From the IMG/VR virus record IMGVR_UViG_3300029984_000035, positions 1-21,141 of that record: 21,141 bases of DNA. One strand, written 5' to 3'. Below are positions 10,960 through 21,141 of the stretch, in pieces; positions within the stretch are counted from its first letter, which is position 1; every line of letters starts with the position of its first letter. Made by a program: the position numbers and the translations under genes. The stretch is from a virus. Below the pieces are notes generated by a model. That model did no database searches and was not told the DNA's origin. It worked only from the letters and a program-made list of their open reading frames with translations.

Positions 10960-11595
10960 TTATGCTGATAAATCATTAAATGGAATATCCAATGGGGTAA
11001 TCCCATCTTCCTGCCATCCTGAATTTATATCAAATATCTGCTTTTCTGAATCCGGTGTGCTATTGAAAGTGGCAATATCAATCAACCTACGAGCGTTTGT
11101 GTCATTATCAATAGTTCTGCTTTGTACTTCCATTGTACGGTCATAAATAGCCTGCTCTGTCGCTGTCAATGCTACTGTTCCATACTTTGCCATAATTGGA
11201 GCATTTACCATGCTCAATTTTGAGAAATCAGATTCAATTGAAACTTTTGTATTTGCTTCAATTTCCCTCTGTTTGATTGATGCAATTAGTTCCGGCAATG
11301 ATTTAAATACATAATGCGTTGATGTTTGAAACTCGTTTACGTTTACATAAATAGCGTTCTTTTGATTTGTTGGTACTGCATTAACTACAGCATCGTAAAC
11401 TCTCATATCAGGAACTGAATCAGAAATTACATTAGTCATGATTAAAAGTTCCTCATTTGGATTTGGTAATGCTTGATTGAAATTCGGGTCAATGGATGGA
11501 AAATCGAAATTTGATGCTTTGATTTGAAAATCAGCATCGGTTAAACTACCATAATTACGCTCGGTAGTTTTCCACAAAATTAAAATTGCTTTCAT
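10960..11595 (-). CDS. Fibre-region protein of unknown function (211 aa)
   Basis: The product begins MKAILILWKTTERNYGSLTD and has a mixed, soluble composition with no membrane span. The C-terminus, NSGWQEDGITPLDIPFNDL, is proline- and Asp-rich. It overlaps the preceding fibre gene by ATGA and is followed by the LamG-like gene five bases later. It may be a fibre chaperone, connector or structural protein by location. No family is recognised. Confidence 0.78.
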   Translation of the reverse strand: MKAILILWKTTERNYGSLTDADFQIKASNFDFPSIDPNFNQALPNPNEELLIMTNVISDSVPDMRVYDAVVNAVPTNQKNAIYVNVNEFQTSTHYVFKSLPELIASIKQREIEANTKVSIESDFSKLSMVNAPIMAKYGTVALTATEQAIYDRTMEVQSRTIDNDTNARRLIDIATFNSTPDSEKQIFDINSGWQEDGITPLDIPFNDLSA

Positions 11596-12575
11596 GTAAG
11601 TTCTTGTATTTTATTCATTAATATTGATGTAACTAAATTTTTTCCGGATTCTGATAATCCAACCTGATTGACGAAAATAGTTCTAATATCACCCACGTTA
11701 AATGTAGTTGTAGTAGATGAAAGAATTTGTGTTCCGGCTATTACCAAAGTTCCGGCTGAAATTTTAGGAAGTGTTGAGAATATTGAAACACCGTTTTTCT
11801 TAATATCGAAAACAATGTCAAGACTTGCAGGCGCTGTCGTTACTTCAGCGTAAATGCTTTCTGATGTAATTGTGTGCTGTTCTCTTACCGTTTCGCTTAC
11901 TATCATCCCAGTTTTAATATCCTGATCTAATCCGGAAAGCACATATTCGGCTAGTTCGGTTGAACTTCCATTAGAACCAGGTGTACCATTTGTTACAGTG
12001 AATGTGTCTGTAGTATCATCCGTATAAGTGATTGTATAAGTATCTACTAGTCCAATAGTTGAAGTTTTTGCAATAGAAGTTATACTTTTTCCTGAACTTA
12101 AATCTCTTAGTTTCGCAAAGTCTTCTTTGGACATAAGTCCATTTTGCAACGCAGTTGCTAAGCCTTGTATTCCTCCTAAACTGTCCCAATTCGCCGAATC
12201 ATAAGGATGTGATTCGGCCACTGTATTGCCTGCATAGACATAATTCATTCCTGTATCAAGCAAATTATAAACATCTCCATTTTCCGGAGATGTTGGTAAT
12301 GCTCCGAAATTCGCAACATTACCTTTGCTTCTGTAAACAGCTGCTATCTTGTCGGACAGTTCTGTTTTAGTTGCATAAGTTGTCTTTACGTAATCAGAAG
12401 AAAATACAGTGCTTGCTGATGAATTTTCCTCACCGGATACAATATCATCATCTTTCACCAATACATTTTGAAGAATTTTTTCTTCTAAGTCCTGATGTTT
12501 TCCGGCATCTATCTTATTCTCAGAATTGGGATAAATGATTGATTTTAGATAACTTATTAATTGACCTCTGTTCAT
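11592..12575 (-). CDS. Tail fibre-type protein (327 aa)
   Basis: The ATG at 12575-12573 overlaps the preceding stop as ATGA and gives MNRGQLISYLKSII; an alternative start 18 bases upstream would overlap more. Residues near 85-135 hold 'VYRSKGNVANFGALPTSPENGDVYNLLDTG' and 'WDSLGG', a module common in phage fibres. A second recurrent fibre motif follows: 'SIAKTSTIGLVDTYTITYTDDTTDTFTVTNGTPG', ending at a short Gly-Ser linker. The C-terminal part is Ser/Thr-rich and beta-like, as in receptor-binding trimers. It probably forms part of the tail fibre or tip. Confidence 0.8.
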   Translation of the reverse strand: MNRGQLISYLKSIIYPNSENKIDAGKHQDLEEKILQNVLVKDDDIVSGEENSSASTVFSSDYVKTTYATKTELSDKIAAVYRSKGNVANFGALPTSPENGDVYNLLDTGMNYVYAGNTVAESHPYDSANWDSLGGIQGLATALQNGLMSKEDFAKLRDLSSGKSITSIAKTSTIGLVDTYTITYTDDTTDTFTVTNGTPGSNGSSTELAEYVLSGLDQDIKTGMIVSETVREQHTITSESIYAEVTTAPASLDIVFDIKKNGVSIFSTLPKISAGTLVIAGTQILSSTTTTFNVGDIRTIFVNQVGLSESGKNLVTSILMNKIQELT

Positions 12576-12997
12576 ACTCGTGATATTGTCCAAGTCCCCT
12601 CAACAGAGAGATCGGATATTTTTAAAAATGGAGTCCAACTTTTGCGACTGAATAAAGTCCCATCGGCGCAAATAGTTCCAAATTCCGAAATGGTCAAACC
12701 GTTAGCATCTCCTGACCCTAATTGAAATGTAATAACTAGTGATGATGAACTAGCTGTTATATTAGCAATTGTCAAATCTACAGCATCAGTTATTTCTGTA
12801 TCTCCTGAATCTGGAGCAGTTCCGTTACTGCCACATTGAACCTTAGTTATATTCTTTCCTGTAATGCCTGACAATGCAGAAAACAAAGCATTGTATCCGC
12901 TATCAACAATCAGGTTCTTTTCCTTCTTAGTCTCGATTAATTTTCCATTCAGAAAAAACCTCAACTCTAAAACTCCTATTAATTTTAGTTTTTCCAT
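12572..12997 (-). CDS. Tail/fibre-associated protein (141 aa)
   Basis: The product contains 'NLIVDSGYNALFSALSG', 'DLTIANITASSSSLVITFQLGSGDANG' and the 'LTISEFGTICADGTLFSRKSW' region. I recognise these patterns as recurring in small phage tail proteins located between collar fibres and other fibres. The composition is beta-rich with no membrane span. It begins one base after the collar-fibre gene and ends overlapping the next fibre gene. The precise role is unknown. Confidence 0.75.
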   Translation of the reverse strand: MEKLKLIGVLELRFFLNGKLIETKKEKNLIVDSGYNALFSALSGITGKNITKVQCGSNGTAPDSGDTEITDAVDLTIANITASSSSLVITFQLGSGDANGLTISEFGTICADGTLFSRKSWTPFLKISDLSVEGTWTISRV

Positions 12998-12998
12998 T

Positions 12999-13604
12999 TT
13001 AATAGAGTTTTATGATTTTGTTTACACAAATAGAAGGGGGCATATTATTGTGCGGCGCTCCTAGTCCTGAATAGTCAGTTACAGACCCAGATATTGCATT
13101 TACTCCGTTGTATTCTCCCGGGGACGTAACTACTAAATTCCCGGGGTCTCCATTATCAGAGTTAGAACCACCAAGTGAAATACCTGAATGTTTGTGTTGT
13201 CCATTCTCATTTGCACTTAATGCATGCGCTCTTTCACCCAATATGTTTCCTAAAGCATACCCGGTAGTCGCACCGCATTGAATTTCCGTGTAACCTTCTG
13301 GAACGTTTGGAATCTGGAAAGTTCCCGCTCCGACGTTAACTCCGTATGGTGATTGATAACCACCAAGATTCAGAAATAAATCATTGTAATCTGTAATTGA
13401 TAGGCTTCTGCCATCTCTCAAACTCCACCCCGCTGGGATTGTAGTTGATGGTCCATGCCAATCCATTGTTGCACCTGCCGGCATATAAGTTGCGCCTAAA
13501 ACAGTATTAAGTGTTTCGCGCGTTTTTTGTCCTGTTATTTCTCTATTTCCGTTAGTTGTGAAAATAGTGTTTATGAGTGTTTGAAGTACTGTTAGTGTGT
13601 TCAT
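12999..13604 (-). CDS. Collar-domain tail fibre protein
   Basis: The 201-residue product carries a phage tail collar domain: 'TIPAGWSLRDGRSLSITDYNDLFLNLGGYQ' (about 55-85), 'GTFQIPNVPEGYTE', a His-rich segment 'ERAHALSANENGQHKHSG', and the typical end 'NNMPPSICVNKIIKLY'. In known phages this domain caps short tail fibres and often binds metal through His-x-His pairs. Here HKH is the candidate. The N-terminal 40 residues are helical and may attach to the baseplate. It overlaps the gpI-like gene by ATGA, the position of fibre gene H in P2-type clusters. Confidence 0.88.
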   Translation of the reverse strand: MNTLTVLQTLINTIFTTNGNREITGQKTRETLNTVLGATYMPAGATMDWHGPSTTIPAGWSLRDGRSLSITDYNDLFLNLGGYQSPYGVNVGAGTFQIPNVPEGYTEIQCGATTGYALGNILGERAHALSANENGQHKHSGISLGGSNSDNGDPGNLVVTSPGEYNGVNAISGSVTDYSGLGAPHNNMPPSICVNKIIKLY

Positions 13605-14197
13605 GTTAATGTGTCGTTTTCTATTGAAAAGTCGTTATTAAAGTCGTTATTAAAGTCTCCACCTGATAGAACTAAGTCATCGGTAAGCGATAAGCTATCT
13701 TCTAATTCTATTCCGAAATATACCTCGGTTAATATACTCCGGGCATTTTTGTAATAACTGATAAATGATTTTAGCATAGTAAGAGAATTTGCACCAATTA
13801 CACCTAAATCATTAGGTGTAAGTTCTACCCGAAAGGCACACCATACATTTTCCCCTCCGGGATAAATGGGAACATTCTCTTGTGTACTTTTTGGCGTAAA
13901 TCCAATTAATGAACAGGCTTTTTTTATCCCCCAAATAGTGCCTATATTTCTGTGCAGTCTTATTGCATTCTTAATAAGCTCTCTTTGCTGTTCTACGGTC
14001 GTGCATTGGTCAAATCCTCTGAATCCATCTACATCGAATTGCTTAGCTAACCAGGGTAAAGCGGAAGATTGAACAACATCAACCAGATAAACCATCATAG
14101 GTGCTAAGTCTATGTTGTCAAACTGGTTTGATATGATTTCATCAAATATTCCAAGTCGACTATCAGCTACAGCCGAAGCCATTAATTTTCTACCCAT
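13601..14197 (-). CDS. Baseplate wedge protein, P2 gpI-like
   Basis: The 198-residue product matches the P2 gpI-type tail protein: 'LPWLAKQFDVDGFRGFDQC' followed by 'QRELIKNAIRLHRNIGTIWGIKKAC'. This is the helix pair typical of the family, and the 'FRVEL' strand region follows. It would join baseplate protein J to the fibre. The C-terminus contains a duplicated NNDF unit encoded by a 12-bp direct repeat near 13628-13656. It overlaps the J gene by 8 bases. A second Met five residues in is a possible start. Confidence 0.87.
   Translation of the reverse strand: MGRKLMASAVADSRLGIFDEIISNQFDNIDLAPMMVYLVDVVQSSALPWLAKQFDVDGFRGFDQCTTVEQQRELIKNAIRLHRNIGTIWGIKKACSLIGFTPKSTQENVPIYPGGENVWCAFRVELTPNDLGVIGANSLTMLKSFISYYKNARSILTEVYFGIELEDSLSLTDDLVLSGGDFNNDFNNDFSIENDTLT
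13628..13656. repeat. 12-bp direct repeat (about 2.4 copies) in gpI-like gene
   Basis: The unit GTCGTTATTAAA is repeated head to tail, encoding a doubled NNDF near the C-terminus of the gpI-like protein. It is in frame and probably a slippage product. Confidence 0.85.
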
Positions 14198-15476
14198 TGT
14201 TAGACCCTGTTATTGTAATTGTTATTCCCCCTGCTTCAAGTTTTGCAACCTGCCAAGGACTTACCACTAAGTTTCTACCGGTTAAACTTCCGATCGTTGG
14301 AATTATCGTTGCAGTTACATCGTATACATTTGATATTCTGCAAATAGATTCTATGTAAGTAGCTACAATATCAAGTCCTAAAGCCTGTTTTTTTGCTGTT
14401 GCAAAATCATTTAATATCGTATACAGTGAACTTGTAAGGTCTGACCCTAAAGCATTAGGACTCTTTATTACATTAACCGATAAGCTATACATTAATTCTG
14501 TCGGTTCTCTAACGACTACAGTATCTGTCAAAGGTCGTATATTTTCATCACTCAATATTTGTGATATTTTGTCATTTATTGCGGTTGTCGGTATTTCTCC
14601 GTTATCCAACAAAGAGAATATATGAACCTCTCCGGCTTTTATCCAGTTTTCGGTATTTGTAAGCGGATTTATACCTACAGTTCCATTCTTTACGCAAACA
14701 GCAACAATACCGTTGATAGTTACAAAGCTATTTATGTTGTAAGTAGTTCCGTTATTGTAAGTTGCTATTGTCTCTATTGGAAGATAGTCTCCTAAAGTGG
14801 CAATGGCAACATCAGAAATAAGAGCGCTTGCTGTTTTAGCCCAATAGATATAAGCGTTTCGGCTCCCTGCTGTGCTGAATTTAGATGTAGCTAATTGAAC
14901 ACGTGACCTTAATTCGTCGTCACTTTCTTCATCTGAACCTCCGGCGGTAATATTCGTGTTTGTAACCGCTGAAATATAGGCATAAGGGTCTTGAACTGTG
15001 TTTATTTCCCCTATTCCGTAGCCGTTACCTGAAACTCCGGTAGTTTGGCAAGTTGCTGAGACTTCAACAGAATCAACTCCAACAGGCACAACTACATCAT
15101 CATCCGTTGCGAATATCATTTGTCCATCTGCGCTAACAACACGAGTACCTAAAGGAATGGTTACCTGTAAATGCCCGGTTACAATAGTGAATCCAAGCGT
15201 ACATACTGCTCCCTGAGCCGGAAGACGTGTTATATTGAATAGCGAAGCTAAATAATCTAATACCGGTGCCGTTGAAAAATCAACTAGCATTGACTTTCCG
15301 GCAGCATTTACTCTGTTCATCGCAAGTGCCTTGTGATATGCGATTGCTGAGGCTATTATGTATTCGGGCTGTGCCGGCTCAATAGTTTTTCCGCTCAAAT
15401 TCTCAAAATCTGATAAAACTTCTGATAAAATAACCGCAGGATCGGAATCCACAAAAATTGGGTCTGTTAGTGCCAT
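14190..15476 (-). CDS. Baseplate protein J-like, with inserted small domain
   Basis: The 428-residue product matches the baseplate J family. It has 'QPEYIIASAIAYHKALAMNRVNAAGKSMLVDFSTAPVLD' in scattered family positions (about 36-75), 'GGSDEESDDELRSRVQLA' (179-196), 'STAGSRNAYIYWAK', and the later 'RPLTDTVVV' and 'AKKQALGLDIVATYIES' segments. In P2 the protein is about 300 residues. Part of the excess here is an insertion at about 231-283 (YNNGTTYNINSFVTINGIVA ... NWIKAG) that resembles chitin-binding-type CBM modules. It forms the wedge ring of the contractile-tail baseplate. It follows the W gene with no gap. Confidence 0.88.
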   Translation of the reverse strand: MALTDPIFVDSDPAVILSEVLSDFENLSGKTIEPAQPEYIIASAIAYHKALAMNRVNAAGKSMLVDFSTAPVLDYLASLFNITRLPAQGAVCTLGFTIVTGHLQVTIPLGTRVVSADGQMIFATDDDVVVPVGVDSVEVSATCQTTGVSGNGYGIGEINTVQDPYAYISAVTNTNITAGGSDEESDDELRSRVQLATSKFSTAGSRNAYIYWAKTASALISDVAIATLGDYLPIETIATYNNGTTYNINSFVTINGIVAVCVKNGTVGINPLTNTENWIKAGEVHIFSLLDNGEIPTTAINDKISQILSDENIRPLTDTVVVREPTELMYSLSVNVIKSPNALGSDLTSSLYTILNDFATAKKQALGLDIVATYIESICRISNVYDVTATIIPTIGSLTGRNLVVSPWQVAKLEAGGITITITGSNNG

Positions 15477-15893
15477 TTAACTATATTGTTTATCGTTATA
15501 TGCTTGTGAATATGCTTTCATTTTCGCTACATTATTAGCAGAAATAAGGTCATTTATTGAGAGAGTTGCTTCTATTTTGGTATTTGTTTGAATGTAAATA
15601 CCCGAAATAGCCACTTTTATATTATTGTCATCGCCAACAATTGGCTTTACCTGCGAAATAGTACATCTAGTCTCCCATTTCTCCAAGTCTTTTATTATCT
15701 GAGCTGAAAAATTTCCGCTAAATCCATTATTTGGCTTGTCTGCATATTGATAGATGTAACTACCAAAATTTGGACGCAATGGGTCGCTACCAGGTATTGT
15801 ATGAAGAATGACATACCAACTTTGAGCTATATCCTCGGCACCTTCCACAGAAACGCCAAATGTGTTTAATGATATACTGCTATCTCCGTTCAT
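15477..15893 (-). CDS. Baseplate wedge protein, gpW/gp25-like
   Basis: The 138-residue product has the family signature: 'EDIAQSWYVILHTIPGSDPLRPNFGS', 'YIYQYADKP' and a C-terminal beta region. T4 gp25 and P2 gpW belong here and have lysozyme-like folds without enzymatic use; they form part of the baseplate wedge and help trigger sheath contraction. It overlaps the preceding small gene by ATGA and abuts J, the conserved W-J-I order. Confidence 0.88.
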   Translation of the reverse strand: MNGDSSISLNTFGVSVEGAEDIAQSWYVILHTIPGSDPLRPNFGSYIYQYADKPNNGFSGNFSAQIIKDLEKWETRCTISQVKPIVGDDNNIKVAISGIYIQTNTKIEATLSINDLISANNVAKMKAYSQAYNDKQYS

Positions 15894-16117
15894 TTTGTTG
15901 CTGTTAAAGTTATAGTTCCGGTTACTGCTACCGAACCGGCTGTCAATATGGCATCCACGGTAGTCGTATCTATTCCGCGTTTAATGGCATCTGCAATTTT
16001 ATCAGAAAGTTGGTCGGCAAATGAATTAATAGCATCTTGCTGATCCCCTGTATCTGTTTTCATTGTATCTAGAATTGATACAATATCAGTTTTCAATTGA
16101 TTTTTATCTATGCTCAT
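15890..16117 (-). CDS. Small baseplate-region protein (75 aa)
   Basis: The product has 'QDAINSFADQLSDKIADAIKRGIDTTTVDAIL' in a helical N-terminal part and a short Val/Thr-rich end, VAVTGTITLTATK. I recall similar small proteins lying between spike and gp25-like genes in Bacteroidota and other P2/Mu-type tails; their role is not known to me. It is coupled at both ends by ATGA overlaps, so it is made with the baseplate. Confidence 0.78.
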   Translation of the reverse strand: MSIDKNQLKTDIVSILDTMKTDTGDQQDAINSFADQLSDKIADAIKRGIDTTTVDAILTAGSVAVTGTITLTATK

Positions 16118-16566
16118 GGTTTTGGAATTGGTTTTCCACTAGGTCCTACCGGAGTTGTGTGTAAATGGTTAATCAATGATATTTCCTCGACTCCCGCAAT
16201 GACATCTCCGGTAACTGTTAGTTTTTTACATTTAAATATGAGTTCTGCTTCAGTTCCTCCATCTATAGTTAGTGTTTTATTTTCTGTATCGTAGGATATA
16301 GAAGTCCCATCACTGAATCTATATCCTTCTGTAGTTTCATTTGCCCATTCCGGTATATTTTCATCGTCGGTTATGACCCGGTGCAATATCTCTCCATCCT
16401 CACCGTTATCATGCATTTCTACCGCAACCTGACAGGTTATAGGAAATAATTTCACTTCGCTCATTGAGTTTGGCAGAGATAGCCAACCGCTCGTTATGTC
16501 TATTTCATCAAAATAAACACGTGCCCGACCTTCTTTTACTTCCGATATGATTCCGTATCTTAGCAT
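16114..16566 (-). CDS. Baseplate spike protein, gpV-like
   Basis: The 150-residue product starts with an OB-like domain (LRYGIISEVKEGRARVYF, about 2-19) and continues with short beta repeats (KTLTIDGGTEAELIFKCKKL). It ends with 'SLINHLHTTPVGPSGKPIPKP'. In P2 gpV a His-x-His near the tip of the trimeric beta-helix binds iron; His134 and His136 could serve here. It pierces the outer membrane during contraction. The protein is shorter than P2 gpV (211 residues), which implies a shorter spike. It sits next to the D-like hub gene, two bases away. Confidence 0.86.
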   Translation of the reverse strand: MLRYGIISEVKEGRARVYFDEIDITSGWLSLPNSMSEVKLFPITCQVAVEMHDNGEDGEILHRVITDDENIPEWANETTEGYRFSDGTSISYDTENKTLTIDGGTEAELIFKCKKLTVTGDVIAGVEEISLINHLHTTPVGPSGKPIPKP

Positions 16567-16568
16567 AA

Positions 16569-17654
16569 TTATTCTTCTTTTTCTTCTCCCAAACTATCAA
16601 AAGCCGTTTCCGATGTTGTCGGTTTTTCCTGCTTAACTCTAGGCACTCGTTTTGGTTTAGGTATTGACCCTGTCTTTCTAATTTCTAATGACATCGTATA
16701 GCCTCCCGAACTATCAATCGTATGCGTGGAAGTTGGTATATGATATTTACCTGAACCCATTCCAAAACCGGTTAAATCAAAATTATTTCCGGCTACCATT
16801 TGCGGGTCACCGGGACCCGTTATTGTACCTGACTGCTTGTATTTATTCTTTCCCCAAAGTCCGCCTTTTACTTTTGCTTCTGCTTGACTACTCGAAGCTA
16901 CAGAACCAAAGAAAATGGCTTTATCATTACCACCCGAAAGAATATTGTCAATGTTGTAAACTACAAGTTTACCTTTTTTGCGGTTTCTCTGCTTTATTTC
17001 ACCGCTCGAATAAGTATCAAATGTTTTTTCGTTTAGCTCATAAGATGATAATTGTGTTTTATCTATCTCTGTAACCGAGGCTACTTCTTCGAGGTCATGA
17101 TAGCTGATAAAAACCATTTTTTGACCCTTGACGGTAAACATAAAACCATACTCCTTAGCCAATTCAGAAAGAAAAGCTAAATCTGTTTTAGTATTTTGAG
17201 TTTTCCTATCCAACCAGATTTGAGAAAGCATATTAGAACCATCTATCAACGTGAATCCATGTTTCCGGCAGAAATAAAGAGCTATCTGCTTTAAGGTTTG
17301 TTCCTCAAAAGCTTTACTGTTTTTTGTTCTCAATGCCTTAGAAATTCCGGCTGAGATAGCTTTAATCGTTATCTGGTCAGGAGGTCCCGAAAGCGTTACG
17401 TCATCAACTTCAAATAGACCACTGTCTATTTGAAGTTGATGATACCCGATGTAGAGTTGTAAAGTATCACCTTCAGCCGGATACCAATCCTCAAACCAAA
17501 CGGCACTCGTATTATCCAAAACCAACGATATCTCGTCAGTGGCTTCTTCCTCGTGGTCTGTGTACGTGACTGATGAAACATATTGCTTTATTTTATTCGT
17601 TACGTTATTCTTATTCCAAAATAGCGTTATATCAGCTTTCCTTGCTACTTCCAT
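16569..17654 (-). CDS. Baseplate hub protein, P2 gpD-like
   Basis: The 361-residue product matches the gpD/gp27-like hub family. It has 'SVTYTDHEEEATDEISLVLDN' (about 28-48), 'GDTLQLYIGY', 'SGLFEVDDVTLSGPPDQITIKA', 'KALRTKNSKAFEE', 'LAFLSELAKEYGFMFTV' and a C-terminal Lys/Pro-rich tail with an acidic end, GEEKEE. The hub forms a trimer between the tail tube and the spike and controls baseplate assembly. It precedes the spike gene by two bases and overlaps the preceding small gene by 23 bases. It contains the perfect hairpin at 17401-17442. Confidence 0.88.
   Translation of the reverse strand: MEVARKADITLFWNKNNVTNKIKQYVSSVTYTDHEEEATDEISLVLDNTSAVWFEDWYPAEGDTLQLYIGYHQLQIDSGLFEVDDVTLSGPPDQITIKAISAGISKALRTKNSKAFEEQTLKQIALYFCRKHGFTLIDGSNMLSQIWLDRKTQNTKTDLAFLSELAKEYGFMFTVKGQKMVFISYHDLEEVASVTEIDKTQLSSYELNEKTFDTYSSGEIKQRNRKKGKLVVYNIDNILSGGNDKAIFFGSVASSSQAEAKVKGGLWGKNKYKQSGTITGPGDPQMVAGNNFDLTGFGMGSGKYHIPTSTHTIDSSGGYTMSLEIRKTGSIPKPKRVPRVKQEKPTTSETAFDSLGEEKEE
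17401..17442. repeat. 19-bp perfect inverted repeat with 4-nt loop
   Basis: Arms 17401-17419 and 17424-17442 are exact complements (TCATCAACTTCAAATAGAC on the plus strand) around the loop CACT (17420-17423). The element lies wholly within the hub gene, at codons 71-85, and would form a long hairpin in the late mRNA. By chance such an exact structure is very unlikely in 21 kb. Confidence 0.97.
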
Positions 17655-17850
17655 TATCAGGGAATATTAATTTTACATATTTAAGATTGACACAAATATC
17701 ACCGATACCCCTAACATTTAAAAGAATTGAATCTTCTTCCCTTGTAAAGGCTATATTACCTGTGAATTCAAAACCTTCTCCAATCACTTTAAAAGTTGAT
17801 TTTTTGAATTTTTCTTCTCGATATGCTTCTAAAATAATTTTCTTTGTCAT
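17632..17850 (-). CDS. Small tail protein of unknown function (72 aa)
   Basis: The product begins MTKKIILEAYREEKFKKSTF and is beta-rich (FKVIGEGFEFTGNIAFT, SILLNVRGIGDICVNLKYVKL). It has no membrane span. It lies between the X-like and D-like genes, 16 bases after X and overlapping D by 23 bases. No counterpart is present in P2 at this point. It may be a small tube- or hub-associated protein. The conserved-looking strand pattern and the tight packing support it as a real gene. Confidence 0.75.
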   Translation of the reverse strand: MTKKIILEAYREEKFKKSTFKVIGEGFEFTGNIAFTREEDSILLNVRGIGDICVNLKYVKLIFPDNGSSKES

Positions 17851-17866
17851 AATGTTATTTTTTTAG

Positions 17867-18082
17867 CTACTTCCATGGCGGTAATTTCGTTGTTAGTATT
17901 GCTGAATCTGTGTCATCTAAAATAGGTACTAAAAGAATTGTTCCTTCAGGTAATTCTGTATCAATAGGAACTGCGGTATTGGCTTCAATCAGTGTTTTAA
18001 TTCCCGACATAGAACCGTACATCTTCCACGCTATAGAGCCCCATGTTTCGCCCTGTCCAGTTGTATAATTAAAAGTGCTCAT
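17867..18082 (-). CDS. Tail protein X-like (LysM-type fold)
   Basis: The 71-residue product has the X/LysM pattern: 'YTTGQGETWGSIAWKMYGS', 'KTLIEANTAVP' and 'ELPEGTILLVPIL'. In P2-type phages, X is a small tail protein encoded between U and D, and the same position is kept here. It overlaps U by ATGA. It is presumed to act in baseplate or hub assembly, as the P2 protein does. Confidence 0.88.
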   Translation of the reverse strand: MSTFNYTTGQGETWGSIAWKMYGSMSGIKTLIEANTAVPIDTELPEGTILLVPILDDTDSAILTTKLPPWK

Positions 18083-18915
18083 TCTCCGCCCTCCCTACTT
18101 CCAATAAAAGCCGCAACAGGTGCATAGCTTTTATTCATATAATAAAGTGAATCTGTCAACTTGTTATTCGCTGTCAGTAAATCGTTTGGATTCTTTACTG
18201 CAGCAGCTGCCTTTATATCATCCAATGCAGAATTTACCATAGTGATAGAATTACTCAGATTAATAGCACGAAAAGCTATTTTCTTTGTTGCTTCTACCTT
18301 TGTATTTGCTTGCATAAATGAAGACTTAGCACTATCTGCCGTAGCTGCTATTTTAGTATACATACCATTTGATGGAGCAGGATTCGCAGCAATTGAAGCC
18401 TGTAATCTGGCTGATGAAATTTGACCGCTCTTTACACTCTCTGCTATTGATAAACCAGTTGATTGTTTCAAAGGTATTGCTGCAATAGGAACAGGACTTT
18501 GACTAACTAAAGCTGACCCTGTTTGTTTTATAAAGCTAGCGTTCGTATTATATTCTAATAGGTGAATCTGACATGTTATAGCAGTTGGATAACCATTATC
18601 GAGACAAACTACTTTACTTTCTGATAATGTTGTTATTACGAATTTTCCGTAATTTTTTCCGGTTCCATCTACTAAATAATCAACAATTCCACCTTTACGA
18701 ACTTTTTGTAAAGCATCCATTTCAGCACGTGGTGTGCAGAACTCAATATGAAATAAGGCTGTTATATCGTATTCGTCTAATTTCTCACCAGTTCCCTGAA
18801 CTACTGGCTTAGAACCGATAATTGGTATCTGTCCATAGTTAGTTTCAAAACTACCATCCCACGATTGCGGCAGTTTTATTCCTTGAAAAGTTATATTTGC
18901 GAACGTTAGAAACAT
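18079..18915 (-). CDS. Tail completion/terminator protein, P2 gpU-like with C-terminal extension
   Basis: The N-terminal region (about 1-135) matches the gpU family: 'LPQSWDGSFETNYGQIPIIGSKPVVQ', 'DITALFHIEFCT', 'EMDALQKVRKGG...YLVDGTGKNYGKFVIT' and a final 'AITCQIHLLEY'. P2 gpU has about 159 residues, so the 278-residue protein here carries an extra ~140-residue Ala/Ser/Asn-rich helical extension not expected for the family. It follows the tape measure gene as TAATG. By family it helps close or complete the tail, while the extension may add a baseplate contact. Confidence 0.83.
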   Translation of the reverse strand: MFLTFANITFQGIKLPQSWDGSFETNYGQIPIIGSKPVVQGTGEKLDEYDITALFHIEFCTPRAEMDALQKVRKGGIVDYLVDGTGKNYGKFVITTLSESKVVCLDNGYPTAITCQIHLLEYNTNASFIKQTGSALVSQSPVPIAAIPLKQSTGLSIAESVKSGQISSARLQASIAANPAPSNGMYTKIAATADSAKSSFMQANTKVEATKKIAFRAINLSNSITMVNSALDDIKAAAAVKNPNDLLTANNKLTDSLYYMNKSYAPVAAFIGSREGGE

Positions 18916-20597
18916 TAGTTAAAGGATAAGCGATTTTGATTTTGAGAATATTTTTTCAACCACTGTTCAATTTCTGTTTTATGCTCATTCAGTATTTTAG
19001 AAATATCCTGTTTTACTGTCGGTGAGCCTCCGTTTAAATGGATAACAGGTGCATAATGAATAGCAGGAGCATTTGATATGTTTGCTCTCTGAATGTTGCT
19101 TGAATTGTACGCTTGTGTTGAACGAACTGCTGCTCGTGATTTAGGCTCGTCTTTTGCTCTTTGAGCAGCTTCCTCAATTGCTAAATGTCGGTTATATGTT
19201 CCCGGCACACTCTTTACAAGTACAACACTCTTTTTGATTGCGTTTTGAGTAGCTGTTATTCCGCTTAAGTCTTTAACACCACTCCATGCTACTTTTCCGG
19301 CTGCTGAAAATTTGCCTTGTCGTAATAATGCAAATGCCTTGCCTATGCTTCCAATTCCAGATATTAGACCTTTTATTCTGTCGATTACGTATTCTTTTAG
19401 GATATTACCGAACCCTTTTATCGTGTCCCATGCTGTTTTTATTCCGGCTCGAAACCATGCAAATTTTTTCCATGCAATTACTATAGCAGCAGTTAATGCG
19501 GCAATTCCTACAACTACCCATGTAATCGGATTTGCTAATAGTGCGGAATTTAAAAGCCATTGTCCTGCGGTAGCTACTTTTTGAGCAACAGCTAAGGCGT
19601 AGTATTGAATTTTGAAAAGAATCATCGAGTTTTTAGTCAGAGCTATCCCGATTCTTGCTAAATCCATTATCTTTTTAAAATTTCCAATAGTTCGTATTAC
19701 CGTTCCAGATACAAGAAGAAAAGTGCCTAAAACAGTGAGAAGAATTCCAGTGCTAGCAGCCATAGTTAAGACTGTTTTAGCTAAAGTTTTATGCCTCTGT
19801 GTCCACATTGAAATCTTCTTAGATATGTCTGCAATTTTCTGCATATACTTTATCACAGTAGGAAGAACGCTTACAGCGATAGTCGTTTTTATTCCCATCA
19901 TTGCCAATTTATTTTCGCCCATAGCAGCTCGGTATTTTTTGAATTCTGCTATCTGTTTATCAGTGAGAACAACTCCGTACTGCTCCATTTTATCTCCATA
20001 CGCTTTGATAGCTTTACTTCCTTGATTAAGCATTGGAATAAGGTCTTTACCTGACTTTCCAAAAAGCATCATAGCAAGAGCTGTCTTTTTCGGTCCGTTT
20101 GGTGCGTTTTTAAATTTATCAGATAATTCAGTTAGGAGCGCTGAACTGTTTTTTAATCTTCCATTTGAATCGTAAATAGATAGTCCAGACATTTTAAAAA
20201 TCTTTGCAGCCGCTTTATTCCCCATAGCAGCGGATATTTGAGCTTTTGACAACCTCCCGAACGCCATTTCTAAACCGGTTATTTCAACACCCATTTTTTC
20301 AGCAAAACCGCTGTATTTTTGAAAACTTTGAGTTGACATTCCTACTTTCTGGGCTGAGAATTCTATCTGTTTTGCTTTTGATGCAATCGAAGCCACATCT
20401 GCAAACAAAGCTCCTGTTATTGCCGCCCCTGAAGCTGCCATTCCTGCGCCTATCTTCTGCATTTTTCCACCAATAGCGTTAGCCCTCTTTTGGAAGTTAG
20501 TCATTGATGCTGTAGACTTCTTTGTTGCTTGGTCGATAACGCGGGACATTTTATCTGTCGCACTCAAAACCATACTCAACTTCATTACTTCACTCAT
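18915..20597 (-). CDS. Tail tape measure protein
   Basis: The 560-residue product has the tape-measure pattern. There is a long helical N-terminal part (ATDKMSRVIDQATKKSTASM), then 'MGVEITGLEMAFGRLSKAQ' and 'LMMFGKSGKDLIP'-type segments (here MMLFGKSGKDLIPML, about 176-190). Two hydrophobic regions follow (about 274-300 and 351-376, the latter including LANPITWVVVGIAALTA) and then a charged C-terminus. It sets tail length and may help DNA cross the inner membrane. At roughly 0.15 nm per residue it would correspond to a tail near 80 nm (inference). It follows the E/E' gene and ends in TAATG with U. Confidence 0.9.
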   Translation of the reverse strand: MSEVMKLSMVLSATDKMSRVIDQATKKSTASMTNFQKRANAIGGKMQKIGAGMAASGAAITGALFADVASIASKAKQIEFSAQKVGMSTQSFQKYSGFAEKMGVEITGLEMAFGRLSKAQISAAMGNKAAAKIFKMSGLSIYDSNGRLKNSSALLTELSDKFKNAPNGPKKTALAMMLFGKSGKDLIPMLNQGSKAIKAYGDKMEQYGVVLTDKQIAEFKKYRAAMGENKLAMMGIKTTIAVSVLPTVIKYMQKIADISKKISMWTQRHKTLAKTVLTMAASTGILLTVLGTFLLVSGTVIRTIGNFKKIMDLARIGIALTKNSMILFKIQYYALAVAQKVATAGQWLLNSALLANPITWVVVGIAALTAAIVIAWKKFAWFRAGIKTAWDTIKGFGNILKEYVIDRIKGLISGIGSIGKAFALLRQGKFSAAGKVAWSGVKDLSGITATQNAIKKSVVLVKSVPGTYNRHLAIEEAAQRAKDEPKSRAAVRSTQAYNSSNIQRANISNAPAIHYAPVIHLNGGSPTVKQDISKILNEHKTEIEQWLKKYSQNQNRLSFN

Positions 20598-21079: not shown

Positions 21080-21141
21080 AGCCTCAAACAGGATTCGAAC
21101 CTGTGACCTACTCATTACAAATGAGCCGCTCTACCAACTGA
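21080..21141 (-). tRNA. tRNA-Thr(UGU), partial at 5' end
   Basis: Read leftward, the window holds most of a canonical tRNA: the end of the D stem and loop (TCAGTTGGTAGAGC), anticodon stem GCTCA/TGAGT with loop TTTGTAA (anticodon TGT, reads ACA), variable loop AGGTC, T stem ACAGG/CCTGT with TTCGAAT, and acceptor strand TTGAGGC with T as discriminator. CCA is not encoded. The first 11 or so bases lie beyond the right edge. It precedes E by 22 bases on the same strand. It may be a phage-encoded tRNA within the late operon or a host gene next to a truncated prophage. Confidence 0.92.

Follow-up and report, generated by a model that had tools for sequence, protein, structure and literature searches.

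The earliest cases of quasipalindrome-associated template switching came from yeast CYC1 and phage T4 rIIB (Ripley 1982, cited in PMC7202029), and the process is well studied in E. coli, for which thyA and lacZ quasipalindrome reporters exist (PMC7202029). In these systems one arm of an imperfect inverted repeat is copied into the other over a short distance, turning the imperfect repeat into a perfect one. A template switch in yeast UTP5 extended a 4-bp arm to 11 bp through six substitutions that replaced two residues, and an intermolecular variant of the switch with an identical product has been laid out for the same gene (PMC8604942). Template switching can also make the hairpin stems of RNAs in one step (Monttinen and Loytynoja, PMC8794818). 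Perfect inverted repeats in which both arms are protein-coding are present in the mitochondria of Nematomorpha, where they occur in large numbers and reach 284 bp (PMC6649704).

Here, we describe a perfect 19-bp hairpin within a tail gene of an environmental phage, which very probably arose in an ancestor of that phage lineage through a single quasipalindrome-associated template-switch mutation. As in T4 rIIB, CYC1 and E. coli (PMC7202029), an arm would have been copied into its neighbouring arm; unlike the laboratory quasipalindrome mutants, however, this is a fixed natural allele, in which length and frame were kept while three residues were replaced. The closest resemblance in footprint is to yeast UTP5 (PMC8604942), with a multinucleotide cluster on one arm that matches the opposite one, adjacent replacements and six substitutions in each case. 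Nevertheless, the arm of 19 bp exceeds the longest (16) in Table 1 of the yeast study, and three residues are replaced rather than the two of UTP5. A perfect stem arising from one mutational event is shared with the cases of PMC8794818, but those concern RNA genes with a structural stem, whereas ours lies in coding sequence and shows no sign of conservation. In contrast to the many palindromes of Nematomorpha (PMC6649704), which likewise have both arms in protein-coding sequence, this is a single case with one arm at a plausibly tolerant turn of the protein. No natural phage-genome case of this kind appeared in the titles and abstracts returned by searches of open-access papers, subscription journals lying outside the scope of the search.

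The window, by which we mean the whole 21,141-nucleotide stretch analysed (positions 1 to 21,141 of IMG/VR record IMGVR_UViG_3300029984_000035), gave no DNA match in the annotated phage collection. The protein encoded around the hairpin matched PHROG 52 (tail protein) in a profile search with E=1.7e-82, and its AlphaFold2 model (mean pLDDT 78.5, pTM 0.74) returned the PVC, pyocin R2, Mu gp44 and T4 gp27 hubs and VgrG as PDB matches. By profile and predicted fold, it is a contractile-tail baseplate hub of the gpD / gp27 family. The surrounding genes form a P2-like tail module with gpU, a tape measure, gp25/gpW and baseplate J, together with a neighbour that we take to be gpI-like. Beyond the tape-measure gene, a tRNA gene on the minus strand (21080-21141) is cut by the end of the window. 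The features on which the analysis turns are the following:

16569..17654, minus strand: predicted baseplate hub gene (gpD / Mu gp44 / T4 gp27-like), 361 aa, assigned from PHROG 52 and structure matches
17401..17419, as read on the plus strand: arm 1 of the exact inverted repeat; the second arm in the mRNA, encoding the conserved LFEVDD
17420..17423: loop, 4 nt
17424..17442, as read on the plus strand: arm 2; the first arm in the mRNA, encoding YHQLQID
17424..17432 with 17411-17419: inner 9 bp of the stem, the likely pre-existing seed, from alignment and folds
17433..17439, minus strand: converted tract, TCAACTT in mRNA sense, running from the third base of codon 72 to codon 74

The hairpin is real: its 19-nt arms are 100% complementary, and they occupy codons 71-85, about 212-254 nt into the 1,086-nt gene. 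The original prediction had reported two exact 19-base arms with a 4-base loop in coding sequence, encoding YHQLQID and LFEVDD; our inverted-repeat check agrees, and the minus-strand gene places YHQLQID before LFEVDD in the mRNA. This is the longest perfect hairpin of the window, 8 bp ahead of the runner-up, which has 11-nt arms (loops of 3-30). Second-order Markov simulations of the window (n=30) yielded on average 0.6 hairpins with arms of 10, 0.13 with arms of 11 and 0.07 with arms of 12, and none with arms longer than 12 nt. Assuming a roughly fourfold drop per added base pair beyond the simulated arms, the expectation for a 19-bp hairpin extrapolates to ~1e-6 to 1e-5 per window; the rarity claimed earlier therefore stands, although "far below one in a million" slightly overstated it. 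The further claim that the structure constrained codon choice is borne out in so far as random synonymous codons for the same peptide gave 19/19 pairs in 14 of 400,000 draws, but the main change is in the protein, where three adjacent residues differ on one arm.

Two other inverted repeats came to light in this survey. An imperfect one (15 nt, 87%, 7-nt loop) at 12264-12300, in the tail-fibre-like ORF 11592-12593, is a possible quasipalindrome. A perfect 15-bp hairpin with a 7-nt loop lies at 1092-1128 of locus L025, from a related phage, ~1.4 kb upstream of the hub gene, and is also present in L026 and L027; we considered it as a parallel case and rejected it, as no long open frame runs through it on the hub strand and it has no match in the other loci.

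The five nearest other lineages encode hub proteins with 86-87% (L005/L006/L010), 82% (L055, a Bacteroidota MAG), 78% (L007 and L009) and 75% (L008) amino acid identity to that of the window. An alignment of near and distant lineages shows that none of these five, and none of the more distant relatives, has the hairpin. Counted as Watson-Crick pairs, pairing at the site falls from 19/19 in the window allele to 7-10/19 in the five nearest lineages and 2-6/19 further out. While the near relatives encode Y-[QE]-[DN]-[KRQ]-Q-[IV]-D-[ST]-G-L-F-E-[VI]-D-D, the window allele alone encodes Y-H-Q-L-Q-I-D-S-G-L-F-E-V-D-D; the LFE[VI]DD arm and both flanks are conserved among them, and the protein departs only in the YHQLQID arm. 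Conservation of the LFEVDD arm would make it the donor, with the YHQLQID arm as the recipient. We assigned polarity by comparison with outgroups, using a tree from which the hairpin codons had been left out; in this tree, the window, L005 and L007 form a group (92/98) nested in a well-supported set that also includes L008, L009 and L055; the hairpin allele is accordingly taken as the derived state. It had been proposed beforehand that homologues with the same protein sequence but no pairing would point to a one-off mutation. Pairing is indeed absent in the homologues, but their proteins are not identical to that of the window at codons 72-74, a difference that we read as the footprint of the switch event itself.

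That footprint is sharply confined. Relative to L005, the nearest relative, amino acid changes within residues 53-93 occur only at 72, 73 and 74, the codons of which carry 1, 2 and 3 base changes, respectively, whereas all other local differences, including those in the opposite arm, are silent third positions. Six of seven adjacent bases differ between the tract GGACAAA of L005 and TCAACTT of the window, and the latter is the exact reverse complement of AAGTTGA in the opposite arm (17404-17410), with a match at 7/7 bases; that arm thus accounts for each of the six new bases. The six changes adjoin a partly pre-existing stem, in register, and the replacement is same-length and in-frame, leaving the hub protein full-length. 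We also scanned 3,144 difference clusters, unselected, from ~100 kb of ordered pairwise alignments of all alignable pairs, and a reverse-complement explanation of at least 11 nt emerged only at the hairpin (19 nt), against five relatives; among the controls, mirror repeats reached at most 13 nt and direct complements gave none. A same-lineage pre-switch allele was sought with a degenerate pattern for the pre-switch tract and with two probes exactly matching the flanks; none was recovered, the flank probes matching hairpin alleles only, and the allele searches returned neither intermediate forms of the tract nor a close pre-switch allele. The before-state is therefore read from a relative at 80% DNA identity, and it is conceivable that the changes on this branch came in several steps. 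Taken with the homologues, these observations strongly support the earlier suggestion that the hairpin is the scar of a palindrome-forming template switch.

The hallmarks of quasipalindrome mutation are present at the site: the perfect repeat is derived and imperfect in relatives, the changes are clustered on one arm, and a short imperfect stem, CAAATAG/CTGTTTG, folds at the hairpin site of L005. The codons for QID and LFE would already have formed an imperfect inverted repeat, and relatives retain its inner stem in an imperfect version because both halves code these conserved residues; the priming stem is known from L005, a relative rather than the direct ancestor. In an intramolecular switch, the nascent strand must carry the donor 5' to the recipient, and since 17401-17419 precedes 17424-17442 on the plus strand, the plus strand would have been the nascent one. 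This strand is antisense to the gene, and its synthesis would already have passed through the LFEVDD region and the loop into the first part of the QID region; the nascent end, copied through 17424-17432 (GTCTATTTG), may have folded back on 17411-17419 (CAAATAGAC) in an inner stem of ~9 bp. Extension through 17433-17439 would then have taken its own upstream arm (17404-17410) as template, with ~7 to 10 nt copied, before synthesis resumed on the true template at the outer T-G, for which the two templates call alike. The outcome would be the perfect hairpin together with the replacement of QDK by HQL in a single event. An intermolecular switch to the sister template would give the same product.

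In the protein, the replaced residues 72-74 sit at a predicted beta-hairpin turn: residues 72-73 form the turn between the predicted strands 64-71 and 74-89 in the AlphaFold2 model (block pLDDT ~86-88), and the aligned distant relatives are variable here, even in length. A three-residue replacement at this position was plausibly tolerated.

An identical hairpin allele was recovered in four other IMG/VR records (L002, L003, L004 and L011), with 99.8-100% identity to the window over shared DNA. Because the five records are near-identical over that DNA, the persistence of the allele is uninformative about selection. Among the records compared, L057 (IMGVR_UViG_3300030002_000085) equals the window exactly over 11429-20021 and differs from it at 15 sites within 11242-11428; its alignment stops at 11232, where the compared piece of that record ends. 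A mosaic junction of L057 likely lies in the 10960-11595 ORF, beside tail-fibre-like genes.

We regard it as very improbable that the hairpin is instead a selected functional RNA or DNA element, such as an RNase III or other processing site, an mRNA stabiliser or a translation brake between hub and spike. The fold is very stable, with the 102-nt RNA neighbourhood at -38.4 kcal/mol (z = -5.65 against shuffles), and the allele is intact in all five records that carry it; however, no other lineage has the stem, there is no covariation across the aligned homologues, and the stem lies well inside the gene, away from its border, with no Rfam match at the site. The two regulatory roles put forward in the original prediction, an mRNA stability or processing element and a translation brake between hub and spike, thus find no support. 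A conserved cis-acting RNA element was rejected, pairing being lost in all relatives with no compensatory changes. An intrinsic terminator was likewise set aside: the stem is A+T-rich, a T run is missing on both strands, and the terminator scan did not report the hairpin.

A chance extension of the stem by ordinary point substitutions, at a turn of the protein that is variable, appears very improbable. The turn is among the locally more variable spots across distant relatives, and a 7-nt tract with some donor within 100 nt, at any position in the gene, has a chance of ~0.016, a crude upper bound that does not require an adjoining stem. The tract actually observed, however, has a probability of 7e-8 under independent substitutions at the window-L005 codon-position rates, and it lengthens an in-register stem to a total of 19 exact pairs. 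Moreover, the nearest relatives keep a conservative Q/E-D/N-K/R/Q pattern at these residues, and the cluster scan found nothing comparable elsewhere.

A sequencing, amplification or assembly artefact, such as a fold-back chimera, is scarcely credible and already refuted to a good degree. One record, IMGVR_UViG_3300028763_000120 (L059/L011), ends at 17392, 9 nt past the hairpin, and assemblies do sometimes break off at structures of this type. Against this, the four records besides the window have different dataset numbers, and four of the five run through the hairpin with kilobases on each side; an allele shared by five records at such identity indicates one lineage and no artefact of one assembly. 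The change is, in addition, an in-frame substitution of equal length and not an inverted insertion. The assembly of L059/L011 may have been interrupted by the structure or by a coexisting allele; no alternative contig was recovered with an exact probe in the far-side flank. Finally, a variable site of a diversity-generating retroelement was rejected, as the changes are not restricted to A but also fall at G and C, and as the inverted local arm serves as template; no reverse transcriptase is apparent among the listed ORFs of the window, of which the tail module was covered by profile searches.

With a template switch as the preferred origin, it is still conceivable, although very unlikely, that the lineage later co-opted the hairpin, so that within the hub portion of the late transcript it acts as an element of RNase III type or slows ribosomes; if true, co-option would turn a mutational accident into a new regulatory element.

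The hairpin exemplifies an already known mutational class, as an unusually clean natural template-switch mutation that became fixed in a wild phage, within a structural gene. A single slip in replication would have changed six bases and three adjacent residues, leaving a 19-bp hairpin as its record. This supports the view that a single step can produce clustered amino acid changes in phage tail proteins, and it carries a warning that homologues need to be checked before striking hairpins in coding DNA are called regulatory.
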